Assembly (NCBI RefSeq): GCF_024519435.1
Contig: NZ_JALJRZ010000004.1
Coordinates: 186,001-250,000, forward strand
DNA length: 64,000 nt
Source of the DNA: Terrabacter sp. Ter38
GTDB lineage: Bacteria; Actinomycetota; Actinomycetes; Actinomycetales; Dermatophilaceae
Direction: 5' to 3'
Shown: positions 1,807 through 7,515 of the stretch, piece by piece
Layout of the letters: every line of letters starts with the position of its first letter
Position numbering within the stretch: position 1 is the first letter of the stretch
Made by a program: the position numbers and the translations under genes
The notes under the pieces: model-generated
Database searches by the model: none
The model's input: the letters and a program-made list of their open reading frames with translations, nothing else
Told to the model about the DNA's origin: nothing

Positions 1807-2247
1807 CCTGACTCCCCTGAGCTCACGTCGCGCGGTCCCTGACGTCCGCCCACGTTCGAGAAGTATGCGCCGCCCGGAGGGAGCGCGCGAGCCCGACGCG
1901 CGGCGACGGCATACGCGCGCCGTGCCCGGCCGATGGCGGCCTGCGTTGTGGGCAGGGAAGGGGGCGCCGGTGCTGCCAGGCCCGGCGCCCCACGGTCGGG
2001 ACCGCCCCCTGAAGGTCCCGAACCCCTGTGCAGGTCACCCGGCCTGCTGCCCCTCCGCAGTGCCCCGTTGCAGCCCGGTGACCGTTCCCCCTGACCACCC
2101 AGAGTCGTCCCGTCCGGGGTTGATACGTCTCCGGACGAAAAAGTTCGGAAGGCCCGATGTATCAGGAAAACGAGTACGGACACTCAGTCGGGTGTAAGGG
2201 TCTTTCCAACACCATCCGTCCCTCGACCAGCCAGCAGGAGGTTGTCG
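1807..2247. promoter_or_regulatory. Intergenic region with nested inverted repeat, likely promoter of the subtilase-sigma-CHAT unit
   Basis: About 440 bp separate two divergent genes. Most of it is G+C-rich and I see no convincing gene. The part nearest the protease (about 2115-2220) is clearly richer in A+T. It holds a nested dyad: TGATAC at 2121-2126 pairs with GTATCA at 2159-2164, and inside it TCCGGAC at 2130-2136 pairs with GTTCGGA at 2143-2149 with one mismatch. This is a plausible operator or sigma-dependent promoter element for the downstream unit. No -35/-10 pair is clear enough to call. A GGCATAC heptamer lies near 1909. Confidence 0.4.
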
Positions 2248-3792
2248 ATGTCAGAGTCGGGTCCCGACGCCCCACAGGGAGCGACCGGCGAGAACGCGAC
2301 CGGTGGCGCCCGCCGCCCCGAACGTCCGCCCGTCCGCGCCCTCGACCCGGCCACGGCGATGCGCCTGACCGACGGTCGCCCGCCGCTTCCCGCCCTCTAC
2401 CTCTCCGACCGCCTCCTCGTGCGCAACGAGGGCGGTCGGACCCGCGGCCTCGACGACCTCGGTGAGTCGCTCGCGAAGCTCGACCTCGGCTACACGGTGA
2501 CCCCGCGGCAGGACGGCGGCACCCGCGACCTCGACCAGCCCGGCTGGGGCACGAGCATCACGATCCGGCCGCCCCGGTCGCCCATCGAGCCCGTCGACGC
2601 CTGGAGCGTGCTCCAGCGGCTCCGCCAGGAGAACGAACCGATCGCCGAACGCCTGAGTCTCGAGCACGTGCTGCGCCCCGCCGACGGCTACTGGGGCGGC
2701 GTCGGTGGCTACTGGGGTGGCGTGGGTGGCTACTGGGGTGGCGTGGGTGGCTACTGGGGCGGTGTGTCGAACGCCGTCCAGGAGTATGCCGTCCCGGGAC
2801 GCGGGGGCCGGATGCCGGTCGCGCTCGCCCTGCCCGACCCGCGCCTGAGGGCGCGGACGCTCGAACGCAGCCCCGTCGTCGTCGTGCCCGACACGGCCAT
2901 CGCCGGGCACCCGTGGTTCAAGGACGACTCCGGCATCGTGCGCCTCGAGCTCAAGGAGGGCCGGCTCGTCCCGCTGCTCACCGGAGCCCCGGTCGATCCC
3001 CCGGTCTCCGTCCCTGCACCCACCGAGCCGGTGGGGCTGCTGCAGGGGCATGCGACCTTCATCGCGGGCCTGCTCCGGCAGGGCTGCCCCGAGGCGACGA
3101 TCGTCTCGATCCCCGTCATGGGCGACGACGGCGTCGTCGACGAGAGCTACCTGCTCGACGTGCTCCAGGCCCTGCTCGACCGGCACGCGCACGGTCAGCA
3201 GCACGACGCGTCCGAGGTCGTCGACGTGCTCAACCTGTCGATGGGCTACTACGCCGAGGACCGCACGTACACCTCCGGCCCGGTCGCCGACCTGCTCGAC
3301 CGGTTCGCCGAGCACGGCGTCCTCGTCGTCGCGGGCGTCGGCAACGACGGCACCGACGCACCCTTCGTGCCCGCGGCGCTCGCGGCCGAGCCGCCCACGC
3401 GGATCACGGCCAAGTCGATGCCTCCGCTCGCGAGCGTCGGGGCAAGCAATCCCGACGGCGTCACGGTAGCCCTCTTCTCCAACAACCTGCCGGTCGTCAG
3501 CGCGGTGCGCGCAGGCGTCTCGGTCGTCAGCACCTTGCCGCTCACCAACGGCATGGGCCAGCCGTCGTCGCAGGTCTCGGCCGACGGCACGGTGCGCTGC
3601 ACGGTCGACCCCGACGACTACACGGGCGGTTTCGGCGTCTGGAGCGGCACGTCCTTCTCCACCCCGGTCTTCGCGGCAGAGCTTGCGGCGGCCCTCATCG
3701 ACGAGGGCGGCCTGACCGACGTCTCGTCGCCCGTCATGCGCAAGCGCGCCATCCGCGCCCTGCGCTCCTGCATCGGAAGGGCGCGATCATGA
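2248..3792 (+). CDS. S8 family (subtilisin-like) serine protease with GYWGGVG repeats
   Basis: A 514-residue subtilase. An AGGAGG at 2236-2241 abuts a TTG at 2242 but sits 6 nt before ATG 2248, so I chose the ATG. The catalytic triad is readable: Asp215 in VVVVPDTAIAG, His268 in LQGHATFIAGL and Ser469 in SGTSFSTPVFAAE. The NLSMGYY strand (about residue 330) is also typical of the family. There is no signal peptide or membrane segment, unlike most secreted subtilases, which suggests a cytosolic protease. Residues about 1-145 are a non-catalytic N-terminal domain, followed by four tandem GYWGGVG units (147-173) before the catalytic domain. The stop overlaps the sigma factor start (ATGA), implying coupled translation. 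Substrate unknown; a role in a regulatory proteolysis pathway with the neighbouring CHAT protein is inferred. Confidence 0.88.
   Translation: MSESGPDAPQGATGENATGGARRPERPPVRALDPATAMRLTDGRPPLPALYLSDRLLVRNEGGRTRGLDDLGESLAKLDLGYTVTPRQDGGTRDLDQPGWGTSITIRPPRSPIEPVDAWSVLQRLRQENEPIAERLSLEHVLRPADGYWGGVGGYWGGVGGYWGGVGGYWGGVSNAVQEYAVPGRGGRMPVALALPDPRLRARTLERSPVVVVPDTAIAGHPWFKDDSGIVRLELKEGRLVPLLTGAPVDPPVSVPAPTEPVGLLQGHATFIAGLLRQGCPEATIVSIPVMGDDGVVDESYLLDVLQALLDRHAHGQQHDASEVVDVLNLSMGYYAEDRTYTSGPVADLLDRFAEHGVLVVAGVGNDGTDAPFVPAALAAEPPTRITAKSMPPLASVGASNPDGVTVALFSNNLPVVSAVRAGVSVVSTLPLTNGMGQPSSQVSADGTVRCTVDPDDYTGGFGVWSGTSFSTPVFAAELAAALIDEGGLTDVSSPVMRKRAIRALRSCIGRARS
2686..2766 (+). repeat. Four tandem 21-bp units coding GYWGGVG
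   Basis: Inside the subtilase gene, a 21-bp unit (GGC TAC TGG GGY GGY GTS GGT) is repeated four times in frame; the last copy lacks its final Gly codon. The copies are almost identical at the DNA level, differing only at third positions. This indicates recent expansion or homogenisation. The Gly/Tyr/Trp-rich strip sits between the N-terminal domain and the catalytic Asp of the protease. Confidence 0.9.
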
Positions 3793-4370
3793 CGCCGACC
3801 CCCACCGCTCCCGACGGACTCGGGACCCGCGCGGGGAAGGCGTTCGCCGCCTACCGCGCGGGGGAGCGAGAGCGGCTGTCCGAGCTCGTCGACCTCGTGA
3901 CACCGGTCCTCTGGAACGCCGCGCGTTCCCAGGGCGGGGCGCCGGCGACGTGCGAGGACGCCATCCAGACGGCGTTCCTCCAGCTCGTGGACCGGGCCGA
4001 CTCGATCAACGAGCCGGCCGCGGTGCTCGGCTGGCTCGTCGTCGTCGTCAAGCGCGAGGTCTGGCGGCTGGCCCGGGGGGCCCGGCGGGAGTTCGGTGTC
4101 GAGGAGGTGCCGGAGGCGCCGGCGCAGCAGCTCGACCCCGAGGCGCAGTCGATCCTCTCCGAGCGCCAGCGCGTGCTCTGGACGCACGTCTCGACCCTCT
4201 CACCGCGGTGCCAGGAGCTGCTCCGGGTCATCGCCTTCGCCGACCGCCCTGACTACGCCGCCATCGCGGAGTCGCTGGGGATGCCGGTCGGCAGCATCGG
4301 CCCGACCCGTGGCCGCTGCCTCCAGAAGCTGAGGACAACCCTCGGCACCGACCCCGGATGGGCGGTCTGA
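3789..4370 (+). CDS. ECF-type RNA polymerase sigma factor
   Basis: A 193-residue sigma-70 family protein with only regions 2 and 4. Region 2 spans about residues 25-100 (PATCEDAIQTAFLQLVDR, then NEPAAVLGWLVVVVKREVWRL). Region 4 spans about residues 130-185, with a helix-turn-helix around DYAAIAESLGMPVGSIGPTRGRCLQKL. ATG 3789 overlaps the subtilase stop by 4 nt, and the next gene begins 1 nt after its stop, so the three are one operon. The linker between the regions is short and there is no extra SnoaL-like domain. No classical zinc anti-sigma factor is adjacent; the following 168-residue protein occupies that position. The target promoters are unknown. Confidence 0.88.
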   Translation: MTPTPTAPDGLGTRAGKAFAAYRAGERERLSELVDLVTPVLWNAARSQGGAPATCEDAIQTAFLQLVDRADSINEPAAVLGWLVVVVKREVWRLARGARREFGVEEVPEAPAQQLDPEAQSILSERQRVLWTHVSTLSPRCQELLRVIAFADRPDYAAIAESLGMPVGSIGPTRGRCLQKLRTTLGTDPGWAV

Positions 4371-4371
4371 C

Positions 4372-4878
4372 ATGACATCTCACACTGACGCCATCGATGC
4401 CCGCGACATCGCCAACCTGCACCACGTGCGTGACCTCTTCGGGCACGCCGACCCCGTCCCGAGCGACCTCGCCGAGCGAATCAAGTTCGCGATCACCGTC
4501 CACGCCCTGCACGCCGAGGTCGCCGAGCTCATGGACTCGGCCCTGCTGACGACGCGGGGCGCTGACGCCAAGGTCGAGCCGACACCGACCGACTCGGTGA
4601 CCTTCACGGCCGCCTCGGTGAGCCTCATGGTCTCGTCCGGCCCTGCTGACTCCGACGACACGGACGACGCCGACGACCGCGTGCGCGTCGACGGATGGGT
4701 GACGACACCGGGTGCCCAGATCGAGGCCGTGACCACCGAAGGCAGCTCGAGGGTCATTTCGGATGCGAACGGGCGCTTTGTTCTGGATGATCTACCCCAT
4801 GGGCCGGTGCACTTCGTCGTCACCGATCCTGGCAACGAGGACATGCGACCGGTCATCACCCCCACCATCCAGATCTGA
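4372..4878 (+). CDS. Small protein with carboxypeptidase-regulatory-like C-terminus, next to sigma factor
   Basis: A 168-residue soluble acidic protein starting 1 nt after the sigma factor stop. Residues about 10-60 form a helical segment (DIANLHHVRDLFGHADPVPSD, then LAERIKFAITVHALHAEVAEL). The middle (65-100) is Ser/Thr/Asp-rich and looks disordered. Residues about 102-160 resemble a small beta-sandwich of the carboxypeptidase-regulatory-like type (VRVDGWVTTPGAQIEAVTT, then DANGRFVLDDLPHGPVHFVVT). It has no membrane segment and no HxxxCxxC anti-sigma motif. Its position between a sigma factor and a CHAT protease makes it a candidate anti-sigma factor or protease substrate. That role is inferred from position only. 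The name of the fold is a resemblance judged by eye. Confidence 0.7.
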   Translation: MTSHTDAIDARDIANLHHVRDLFGHADPVPSDLAERIKFAITVHALHAEVAELMDSALLTTRGADAKVEPTPTDSVTFTAASVSLMVSSGPADSDDTDDADDRVRVDGWVTTPGAQIEAVTTEGSSRVISDANGRFVLDDLPHGPVHFVVTDPGNEDMRPVITPTIQI

Positions 4879-4983
4879 GGATCTGGCCTGACGTGGTGAC
4901 CGGCCCCTGAGGAGAGGCCGGCGGGAACCATCGATCTGCTCGAGAGTGCACGCACGCTGCGCGAGCAGGGTGCCGCGGACAAC

Positions 4984-7515
4984 ATGGCCGGCCGGCCGGT
5001 CGACGCGGCGCGCTCGCTGACGGCGGCTCTCGACGAGATCGAGCGCGTGGCGGACGCCGCGCCCTCACGGGACCGTCTCGAGCTGCGGTGCAAGACCCTC
5101 ATCACGCTGGCCCTGACCGAGTTCATGCTGTCCGGGGTGGAGGCCGCCCTGGCCCGGCTCGCCGAGGCCGAGACGCTCGTCGACGAGCTCGACGACGACG
5201 CGCTCCGGTCCCGGCTGGACTACCAGCGCGCCAACATCCACGGCCGCGTCGGTGACCTCGCCTCGGCGTGGGACGGGCTCGAAGGGGCGGTGCGCCGCCT
5301 CGACGCCTTCACCGAGCGCGAGCAGTGCTCGGTGCACCTGAGCCGCGGCATGCTCGCCTTCGAGCTGCTGCGGCCGCAGGAGGCGCTCGAGTCCTTCGCC
5401 GAGGCGGCGCGCCTCGCGCACGAGCTCGGCGAGGTCGCCCAGGAGTTCATGGCCCGGCACAACGAGGGGTATGCCGCCTACCTCCTCGGTGACATCCCGC
5501 GCTCCCTCGCCGGTATGGCGCTCGCCGAGGAGCTGGAGTCCGACGTCTTCACGGGACCGGCGCGCCTCGACCGTGCCCAGGTGCTGCTCGAGGCGGGGCT
5601 CGTGCAGGAGGCCGTCGAGGCCCTGCACGGCGGCCTCGAGGCCCTCGAGGGCGACGGCCACGACCAGATGCGGGCCGAGTTCGAGCTCGCCCTGGCCCGC
5701 GCGCACCGGCTCCTCGGCCACCTCGACCTGGCAGCCTCGGCCGCGGCGTCGGCTCGCGAGACGTATGCCCGCATCGGAGCGACCGCCTGGGCGGCCAAGG
5801 CCATGCTCGTCGGCCTGCTCGTCGAGCTGGACCGCCAGCGGCGCGCCCGTCGTGGTCGTGAGCGGGACGGGCTCGAGGGTGGCGCGGACGCCACGGTGGC
5901 GCTCGCCGCGGCTGCGGCTGCGACGGCCGACGAGCTCTCCGAGACGGCGACCGAGCTCGGGGACTCGGAGCTCGCCGACAGCGCTCGGGTCGTCGCCGCT
6001 CAGGCCCTGCTGCTCACCGGTGACCCGGCAGGAGCCAACACGCGGCTACTCAGCCTCGAGAGGGTCTCCACCGGGTCGCTCTCCGACGAGCTCGATGCTG
6101 CGGCCGTCACCGCGATGACGCTCGTCGCCACGGGCGACCTCACGCCGGCCCGACGCATCCTGGCTCGCGCCTCCCGTCGTCTCGCCGCCGGTCAGGAGGG
6201 CAGTGCCAGCCTCGACCTGCGCACTGCTCGTGCGGTCCACGGAGCCCGGCTCTCCGAGCTCGACCTCGAGCTCGCCGTGCCGCGGGGCAGCGGCGCCGTG
6301 CTCGAGGCCCTCGAGCGGTGGCGCAGCGCGACCGACCGTCTGCCGTCGCTCGGGCGACCCGACGACGAGCAGCTCGCGCGGCTCACCGAGCAGCTGCGCG
6401 CCGTCCGGGGGCACCTGCGCGGGGAGAGTGACCCGGAGCAGGCACGCGAGCTGCACGACCACGCCTCCCGCCTCGAGCGGCAGATCCGCGACCGCGACTG
6501 GGCCCTGAGCCGCAGCGGCGGTGCCTCCCGTGCGGTGCCCGTGCGTGTCCGGGCGGCCCGTGAGCACCTGGGCCGCGTCGACCGTGATCTCGTGTGGTTC
6601 TTCCGGCACCGCGGCCGCATCGGCGCGGTCGGGGTCGTCGGAGGCCGGGCGACGCTGCGTGACCTCATGCCGGCCGACCGTGCCGCCGAGCTCGCCCAAC
6701 GCATCCGCGTCGACCTGCGGGCCGCGGCCACGCACCACCTCGGCCCGCTCGGCGGTGCCGTCTGGTCCTCGCTGCGCGCCAGCGCGACCGAGCTGGACGA
6801 CGGACTGCTCCGGCCGTGGCGCACCGACCGCGGCCTCGTCGTCGTGACGTGCCCCGAGCTGTCGGCGCTCCCGTGGGCGCTCCTGCCGTCGATGACGGGG
6901 CGACCGTTCACGGTTGCCCTGTCATTGACGTCGTTCACCCGCCGGGCCTCGTCCCATGACGAGACCCCCCGGCCGGCACCGGTCCACGTCAGCGTCGGCC
7001 CGTCGGTGCCCCGCGCGTCGGGCGAGGGTCGCAGCATCGTCGGCACGTGGGGCGAGGCTGCCCGCCTCGCCGAGCCGTCCCGTCGGATCGAGCTCGTCGA
7101 CGCGCTCGCGCGGCCCGGTGTCGTCCACGTCGCCGCGCACGGGACCCATCAGGTGGAGTCGCCGCTCTTCTCCTCGCTCGTGCTCCACGACGGGCCCGTC
7201 TTCGCGCACGAGCTCCAGCCGACGGGGGTGCGCGCCGACCACGTCGTGCTCTCGGCCTGCGAGGTCGGGCTCACCTCACCCCGACCCGGTCACGAGTCGC
7301 TCGGGCTCGCCCTGTCGCTGCTCTCCCTCGGGGCCCGCTCGGTCGTCGCGGCGGTCTCGCCCGTGCCCGACGACGTCGCCGCGACGACGATGACGCGTCA
7401 CCACGAGCTGCTCGCCTCGGGCCTGCCGAGCGACGAGGCCCTGGCCCGCGCGGTGGCCGAGACCGACGACGTGGCCGCAGCCTTTCTCAACCTCGGTGGC
7501 CAGCACCGCCCCTGA
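4984..7515 (+). CDS. TPR-CHAT protein (caspase-like cysteine protease)
   Basis: An 843-residue protein. The N-terminal two-thirds is Ala/Leu/Glu-rich helical repeats of TPR type, for example AHELGEVAQEFMARHNEGYA. The C-terminus (about 640-843) is a CHAT domain, a clan CD peptidase fold related to caspases. The catalytic dyad is intact: His719 in VVHVAAHGTH and Cys759 in HVVLSACEVGL, followed by the usual SLLSLGARSVVAAVSPVPDD. ATG 4984 is the first conventional start, but the in-frame sequence upstream to the TGA at 4897 reads like the beginning of the same TPR helix (DLLESARTLREQGAADNM). It contains no ATG, GTG or TTG, so a non-canonical start (ATC 4930 or CTG 4936, after GAGGAGAGG at 4909-4917) or a sequence error is possible. 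It belongs to the subtilase-sigma unit, 105 bp after the previous stop. It probably senses a signal through the TPR domain and cleaves a specific protein. Confidence 0.88.
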   Translation: MAGRPVDAARSLTAALDEIERVADAAPSRDRLELRCKTLITLALTEFMLSGVEAALARLAEAETLVDELDDDALRSRLDYQRANIHGRVGDLASAWDGLEGAVRRLDAFTEREQCSVHLSRGMLAFELLRPQEALESFAEAARLAHELGEVAQEFMARHNEGYAAYLLGDIPRSLAGMALAEELESDVFTGPARLDRAQVLLEAGLVQEAVEALHGGLEALEGDGHDQMRAEFELALARAHRLLGHLDLAASAAASARETYARIGATAWAAKAMLVGLLVELDRQRRARRGRERDGLEGGADATVALAAAAAATADELSETATELGDSELADSARVVAAQALLLTGDPAGANTRLLSLERVSTGSLSDELDAAAVTAMTLVATGDLTPARRILARASRRLAAGQEGSASLDLRTARAVHGARLSELDLELAVPRGSGAVLEALERWRSATDRLPSLGRPDDEQLARLTEQLRAVRGHLRGESDPEQARELHDHASRLERQIRDRDWALSRSGGASRAVPVRVRAAREHLGRVDRDLVWFFRHRGRIGAVGVVGGRATLRDLMPADRAAELAQRIRVDLRAAATHHLGPLGGAVWSSLRASATELDDGLLRPWRTDRGLVVVTCPELSALPWALLPSMTGRPFTVALSLTSFTRRASSHDETPRPAPVHVSVGPSVPRASGEGRSIVGTWGEAARLAEPSRRIELVDALARPGVVHVAAHGTHQVESPLFSSLVLHDGPVFAHELQPTGVRADHVVLSACEVGLTSPRPGHESLGLALSLLSLGARSVVAAVSPVPDDVAATTMTRHHELLASGLPSDEALARAVAETDDVAAAFLNLGGQHRP

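Follow-up and report, generated by a model that had tools for sequence, protein, structure and literature searches.

The question raised by this locus is whether four adjacent genes, for a subtilase (S8), an ECF-type sigma factor (SIG), a small protein (SML) and a CHAT protease, form a regulatory switch that is operated by proteolysis and is independent of CRISPR. The window, i.e. the whole stretch of 64,000 nucleotides that was analysed, is contig C43 of a source genome of 4.83 Mb, and the nearest named relatives among the matches listed in a sigma-profile scan belonged to Terracoccus and Terrabacter. The four ORFs were found as the first-pass annotation had described them, all on the plus strand and in the order S8, sigma, SML, CHAT (Table 1). 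The S8 and sigma genes share an ATGA overlap at 3789-3792, and a gap of 1 nt at 4371 separates the sigma and SML genes.

Table 1. Features of the four-gene module and its upstream region (positions in the window)
Feature	Position	Strand	Basis
Promoter-like motif, left: GTATCA-N16-CTCTG, toward lipoprotein-like gene 1006-1806	2100..2126	-	Exact match, kept in relatives
Promoter-like motif, right: GTATCA-N18-CTCAG, one mismatch, toward S8	2159..2187	+	Same form in L085-L090
S8 subtilase, 514 aa, zymogen-like	2248..3792	+	ORF, Pfam, alignment, AF2 model, Foldseek
N-terminal domain of S8 (residues 29-142), probably a prodomain, elements ordered beta-alpha-beta-beta-alpha-beta	2332..2673	+	AF2 model, Foldseek
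S8 tandem repeat (GYWGGVG)n, residues 147-173, low-confidence/disordered, at junction of N-domain and catalytic domain	2686..2766	+	Sequence, AF2 model
ECF-type sigma factor, 193 aa	3789..4370	+	Pfam, NCBIfam
SML, 168 aa: helices 10-26 and 33-59, linker, beta-sandwich 75-151	4372..4878	+	AlphaFold2 model
Arg62 codon (invariant residue of the SML linker, predicted to be cut)	4555..4557	+	115/115 distinct SMLs; pLDDT <50 at 58-70
Inverted repeat CCGGCC-N10-GGCCGG just before CHAT start	4900..4921	+	Sequence
CHAT protease, 861 aa from ATC 4930 (843 aa from ATG 4984)	4930..7515	+	Pfam, alignment, substitution pattern

Pfam analysis detected Peptidase_S8 in the first protein (1.3e-9) and a CHAT domain in the last (E 1.2e-28, 100.9 bits against a cut-off of 24). 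The second protein is an ECF sigma factor, as it matched both Sigma70_r2 (E 2.8e-7, 30.7 bits, cut-off 24) and the NCBIfam model sigma70-ECF TIGR02937 (1.3e-17, 64 bits, cut-off 42.9); its region 4 scored under the Pfam cut-off (12.3 against 24.1). The fourth protein had been described as a TPR-CHAT protease with an intact His/Cys dyad. The CHAT assignment and the dyad were borne out: His719/Cys759 in the numbering from ATG 4984 correspond to H737/C777 when ATC 4930 is taken as the start, and both residues are invariant in all 81 ungapped rows of an alignment of 86 proteins. The TPR part was not recovered in the window protein, where the signal was sub-threshold (TPR_2, E 0.19); TPR models reached cut-off in two of eight relatives scanned (L110, L140).

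The linkage of the genes was analysed in the best 80 of at least 573 relatives, among at least 593 stretches matched in the sigma-profile scan of named genomes. The exact order S8-SIG-SML-CHAT recurred in 67 of these 80 loci, which upheld the proposal of a conserved unit. Three loci were SIG-SML-CHAT without S8 and three were S8-SIG-SML without CHAT, some of them at contig ends. SML directly followed sigma in 80/80 sigma-found loci; since the sets were found via either sigma or SML, this pairing is informative only where SML was the starting point. There, SML exceeded the cut-off used in 23 of the 24 stretches around SML matches in relatives; each of these 23 had SIG-SML, and 18 had the full order. 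In the phylum search, which comprised 19 stretches with varied gene orders (S8 and CHAT can lie on opposite strands), 18 of 22 SMLs were preceded by sigma. SML was present in 25 of 58 kin-set genomes, source genome included, and its profile matched in 28 of 396 genomes sampled across the phylum.

The source genome carries a second, diverged set of the four genes (module B; L194 5135-10260, C22:254001-272000), which was also found in L268 and L269. Its S8, which has no repeats, and its CHAT gene are divergent, with SML-SIG opposite. A pair of WXG100 genes lies next to module B, along with a large gene for an FHA/FtsK-SpoIIIE ATPase, presumably a type-VII-secretion-like setting.

The small protein had been proposed as the inhibitor or target within the switch, and it is still the best candidate for this role, given its place after sigma in nearly all loci and an invariant Arg in its linker. 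In the AlphaFold2 model (mean pLDDT 81, pTM 0.52) a two-helix domain is connected to a beta-sandwich via a linker that appears disordered (residues 58-70 have a pLDDT below 50). We aligned 115 distinct SMLs drawn from 131 matches. Every one of them has an Arg at the position of R62, mostly as [VTAS]-R-[GSAT], with V, T, A or S at P2 in 104/115 and G, S, A or T at P1' in 108/115. The linkers are 16-34 residues long, and from composition 82% of them would carry at least one Arg by chance. A single Arg is present in just 37/115 linkers; 78/115 have more than one, so that in those 78 the aligner had a choice of Arg. Because an invariant residue within a flexible linker is best explained as a protease site, R62 is a likely cleavage site.

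By reading, the SML sequence contains no Cys and no evident hydrophobic or membrane segment, and SML is therefore no known zinc-type or membrane anti-sigma. A fold search of the PDB gave no significant match. The SML profile retrieved three PDB sequences at E up to 1, none of them named Csx30, from a set that may lack Csx30. The partnership of sigma and SML is supported by adjacency and not by coupling analysis, which gave no signal among 127 pairs (Neff 85; top-20 mean 2.59 versus 2.30-2.86 in six clade-wise permutations). Operon position, and only that, suggests the two-helix domain of SML as the part that binds sigma.

SML could instead act on the proteases, as their adaptor or inhibitor, in which case it would not be an anti-sigma and sigma would only drive expression of the set. 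The null coupling result fits such a role. So do L195 and L196, where two S8, two CHAT and two or three SML genes surround a single detected sigma gene and three SMLs lie beside S8 and CHAT without a preceding sigma; these extra copies indicate that SML travels with the proteases too. However, SML directly follows sigma in 103/103 loci of two close sets, and SIG-SML occurs with no S8 or CHAT in the stretch examined in L202, L203 (at a contig end), L205, L207 and L209 of the phylum set. We consider an adaptor role improbable and retain SML as a putative anti-sigma in what follows.

The first protein of the module is a subtilase on its sequence: residues D215, H268 and S469 of the triad and the oxyanion N366 are invariant in 68/68 aligned proteins. 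In its AF2 model (pLDDT 84, pTM 0.87) an N-domain is followed by a low-confidence segment (147-173, pLDDT below 50), which is the tandem repeat, and then by the catalytic domain. The best Foldseek matches of the whole model were pro-subtilisins (458-524 alignment columns, gaps included, in the top seven), among them ProN-Tk-SP 3afg (E 9e-13) and pro-Tk-subtilisin 2e1p (2e-12), which likewise have an N-terminal and a catalytic domain. As modelled, S8 thus looks zymogen-like. It differs from these enzymes in that the TM-score is about 0.4 by query length, no signal peptide is evident and lineage-specific repeats are present. From the reading of its N-terminus the protein looks cytosolic. At least three similar repeat units were found in 65 of 87 S8s, the unit depending on lineage (GGYWGGV, PYWDPV, TSGHPV, APYLAG and others) and being homogeneous within each protein (S8 genes of L085-L164). 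None of seven module-B S8s has repeats, and (GYWGGVG)n is unique to this S8 within the source genome. From its position, the repeat may serve as a gate for autoprocessing or as a tag for recognition.

With two proteases in one operon, either might cut SML. The subtilase could be the cutter, with CHAT acting as a downstream effector induced by sigma: S8 comes first in the operon in 67/80 loci, a zymogen-like enzyme suits a triggered cascade, and one target of the motif described below is a CHAT gene. The three loci without S8 are nevertheless matched by the three without CHAT, so the pattern does not decide, and in the closest analogue that has been studied the CHAT enzyme is the one used, according to the sections of PMC10028731 drawn on here. 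We regard cutting by the subtilase as unlikely. By analogy with Csx29, CHAT would be the most likely cutter of SML.

The dyad positions given in the first-pass annotation count from ATG 4984, but the CHAT frame opens earlier and this ATG is not conserved. The conserved N-terminus, IDLLESARTLREQG, begins at ATC 4930, and a start at the first ATG (4984) would drop 18 conserved residues. ATC occupies this position in the window, L085-L091 and L095-L098; it is not at that place in Intrasporangium (L093, L094). In 12 sequences, picked by their ATC motif, the variable columns by codon position 1/2/3 numbered 3/3/12 from ATC on and 8/8/6 in the preceding 30 nt. On this pattern and the alignment, ATC 4930 is the likely start. 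No ATG, GTG or TTG was found near the aligned N-terminus in 30 of 74 CHAT genes (the window and 29/73 relatives), a count that leaves out 7/81 loci because of no match, an unaligned N-terminus or a contig end. The same test gave 1/79 sigma and 1/81 SML genes. Elsewhere in the family ATC also stands behind an SD-like sequence, e.g. GAGGAGGTACCC-ATC in L162 and its counterpart L046. CHAT genes seemingly starting at ATC behind SD-like sequences were seen in the window (4930), L099, L104, L117, L119, L155 and L162, and one at ACG in L160. Annotation from ATG would truncate genes with these apparent non-ATG starts. A short 5′ hairpin precedes CHAT in 11 of 12 close sequences folded. Stop readthrough or frameshifting from SML into CHAT was rejected as a general route, as the reading-frame offset between SML and CHAT varies even among close relatives. 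A rare start codon would be expected to lower CHAT output.

The region upstream of S8 contains a promoter-like motif in two copies (Table 1). The left copy is the single match in the 64-kb window, against 0.01 expected. Close relatives have two back-to-back copies of GTATCA-N16-CTCTG upstream of S8, and in Terrabacter the S8-facing copy is the one-mismatch form with N18. We scored this region with at most one mismatch in 68 of the 80 loci. The motif pointed toward S8 in 29/68 (6 exact) and away from it in 27/68 (19 exact), and by our count both orientations occurred in 21/68; 39/68 had no S8-facing copy. The expectation is 0.002 per 450 nt of one strand, and elsewhere in the same loci 10 such matches occurred in 2.15 million strand-positions. 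In seven loci (L109, L110, L111, L113, L116, L141 and L148) the S8-facing copy is near-fixed at -74 to -80.

Searching with the motif written in reverse, CAGAGN{15,18}TGATAC, produced five matches in the source genome (control 0) and 65 in 10 relatives (control 1), all of them genomes that carry the close form of the module. The exact motif was not enriched in 13 genomes with more distant modules (5 matches, control 5). We read 35 sites in detail, the five of the source genome and 30 of the 65 in relatives. Their spacers are N16 in 22, N17 in 11 and N15 in two, which is sigma-like spacing. Seven of the 35 precede a gene of 137 aa, whose product looks membrane-bound and has no Pfam match; others precede S8, the divergent lipoprotein-like gene (3/35) and further proteins. 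Five sites are inside called genes (L214, L223, L231, L238, L247), while downstream of some others a gene is not evident. Motif matches also adjoin module B in L264 and L212.

A CTCTA form of the motif lies in the source genome 43 nt before a CHAT gene with the domains DUF7362-DUF7379-DUF7363-CHAT, which is followed by two Peptidase_C14 genes. The product of this CHAT gene begins MPS[AT]SF. A CTCTA site 39-49 nt before a gene with that beginning was present in 9/11 genomes and was not found in G004 and G034; in relatives the start of the gene was read, the CHAT domain and the caspases being established in the source genome alone. Matches to the CTCTW pattern in 10 relatives numbered 11, against 4 in the control.

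In L215, L219, L224, L225, L232, L236 and L248 (about 1501-1700) what comes after the motif is a conserved stretch rich in hairpins, in which no gene is evident; it is located near another ECF-like sigma gene where read (L215, L248). This stretch is possibly a small RNA. Rfam searches gave no match at five motif loci and none in L215, L219 and L248.

Gene starts by themselves do not fix the direction of the motif. In the direction chosen here it precedes the 137-aa gene, the lipoprotein-like gene, the MPS[AT]SF gene in 9 genomes and S8 at the near-fixed spot in seven loci. In reverse it also precedes similar genes (of 35 sites, S8 at 5 and genes of 129 aa at 3, of 191/187 aa at 2 and of 82/98 aa at 2). 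The reverse direction, with CAGAG-N-TGATAC as the promoter, is disfavoured, as the two copies upstream of S8 would then face each other.

The motif may be a promoter read by this sigma. It is tied to it by position only, and other sigmas could share it. One could suppose that it belongs to another regulator and that the module is merely a member of that regulon. Some sites have no gene behind them, gene starts are compatible with either direction, and G023, which has lost most of the first module, still has motif sites. There (L266 9752-10364) a short S8 remnant has a promoter-like motif on either side and adjoins the prephenate dehydratase gene that also neighbours the module (84% identical); it is apparently what is left of a lost module, and G023 also carries module B elsewhere in its genome. 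Against this, members of several families have the motif upstream of the module itself, with sigma-like spacing. Moreover, among 15 family genomes without an SML match the motif occurred in four (3, 4, 1 and 5 matches, total 13, control 9), and in three of these four, module genes are present in diverged or partial form. No module was seen in the other 12 of the 15 (module B is possible there), and these 12 have a single motif match between them, control 8. Control by another regulator seems to us unlikely, and we proceed with the motif as a candidate promoter for the sigma of the module.

The switch had been proposed to be CRISPR-free. As far as RAMP-family proteins go, this part of the claim is supported: Pfam RAMPs (PF03787) had no match in the source genome at E 0.001, against matches in 4 of 14 control genomes, so no RAMP-family Cas7 was detected. 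The curated Csx29 model NF041237 scored 25.9 bits against a cut-off of 300, no PDB chain matched at E 0.01 or better, and NCBIfam and PDB searches found no homology to Csx29 or Csx30 beyond the CHAT domain. By these Cas7 and Csx29 tests, the module does not belong to the type III-E CRISPR CASP systems.

We propose a CRISPR-independent, proteolysis-gated ECF sigma switch with autoregulation, and judge the chances for and against it to be evenly balanced. The model builds on what was observed, namely the gene set and its linkage, the invariant residues of the active sites, the motif with its downstream genes, the linker Arg and the lack of a canonical CHAT start in 30/74 loci. To these it would add binding of sigma by SML, cleavage and its order, promoter use, a cue and a cell fate, either a stress response or regulated death. 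At rest, the N-terminal two-helix domain of SML would hold sigma, and the non-AUG start would keep the CHAT protease scarce. The trigger would be either a cue sensed by the TPR part of CHAT or activation of CHAT by the matured subtilase zymogen. CHAT would then cut SML after Arg62 in the disordered linker, and the freed sigma would fire GTATCA-N16-CTCT(G/A/T) promoters. Its targets would be its own operon, giving positive feedback, the divergent gene and other proteins; in the Terrabacter group they would include the CHAT gene that is followed, in the source genome, by the two caspase genes. More tentatively, and with the balance somewhat against it, both proteases may cut a dedicated anti-sigma at the invariant Arg, the freed sigma amplifying the operon and switching on a caspase/CHAT regulon while the S8 repeats serve as gate or tag. 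On this reading the module would be a CRISPR-independent counterpart, in logic, of Csx29-Csx30-sigma that has spread through actinobacteria, with an actinobacterial caspase cascade under transcriptional control.

Proteolysis of an inhibitor of the RseA or RsiW type frees an ECF sigma factor, and these anti-sigmas are membrane proteins. The pairs RseA/RpoE and RsiW/SigW are named in PMC10028731. SML differs in having no evident membrane segment, and both proteases of the module look cytosolic. Type III-E CASP (Craspase) comprises Cas7-11, the TPR-CHAT protease Csx29, Csx30 and CASP-sigma, as set out in the sections of PMC10028731 used here. The likeness to that system lies in a TPR-CHAT protease, an ECF-like sigma and a protein that is possibly both inhibitor and substrate. 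In contrast, the present module is without a RAMP-family Cas7, has a subtilase added, is actinobacterial and has its own conserved upstream motif, and in place of the 565-aa Csx30 of that source it has the 168-aa SML. Nearest in concept are the EACC2 caspase systems with an ECF sigma and a DUF1822 TPR protein, for which coupling of a caspase-like protease, TPR and ECF sigma is a prediction and not an experiment (PMC8195603). The family names and partners differ from ours, and PMC8195603 nowhere uses the word subtilisin. We recognised no description of the S8-sigma-SML-CHAT set in the PMC literature searched.

A prephenate dehydratase gene (Pfam PDT 8e-43) adjoins the module and is kept in 10/11 of L031-L041 and 16/20 of L085-L104, which indicates that the module occupies a fixed place in Terrabacter and its near kin. 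A mobile element was considered and rejected: SML had one plasmid match, in an 11.8-Mb Nonomuraea record that is probably a chromosome, and one phage match. The latter, MT838002.1 (L286), is labelled Bacteriophage sp. and has all four module genes and a PALP-type enzyme gene; it looks like bacterial DNA. The PADLOC models gave no strong match of the module to any anti-phage system, the module proteins matching partially (IetS 5e-5 for S8, BovA 1.5e-4 for CHAT) and a module-B S8 matching the 'subtilase' model at 9e-8. The fixed neighbourhood and the weak PADLOC matches speak for a core programme of stress response or death more than for a mobile island of defence genes, with defence the less probable role.

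If the proposed switch is correct, control of a sigma factor by a CHAT protease, described so far for CRISPR type III-E in the sections of PMC10028731 used here, would be a widespread layer of actinobacterial signalling. The analysis supplies candidates that can be examined directly in soil actinobacteria, with R62 of SML as substrate site, the motif as promoter and caspase-linked genes as targets. The switch would make the activation of bacterial metacaspases and CHAT proteases directly testable.
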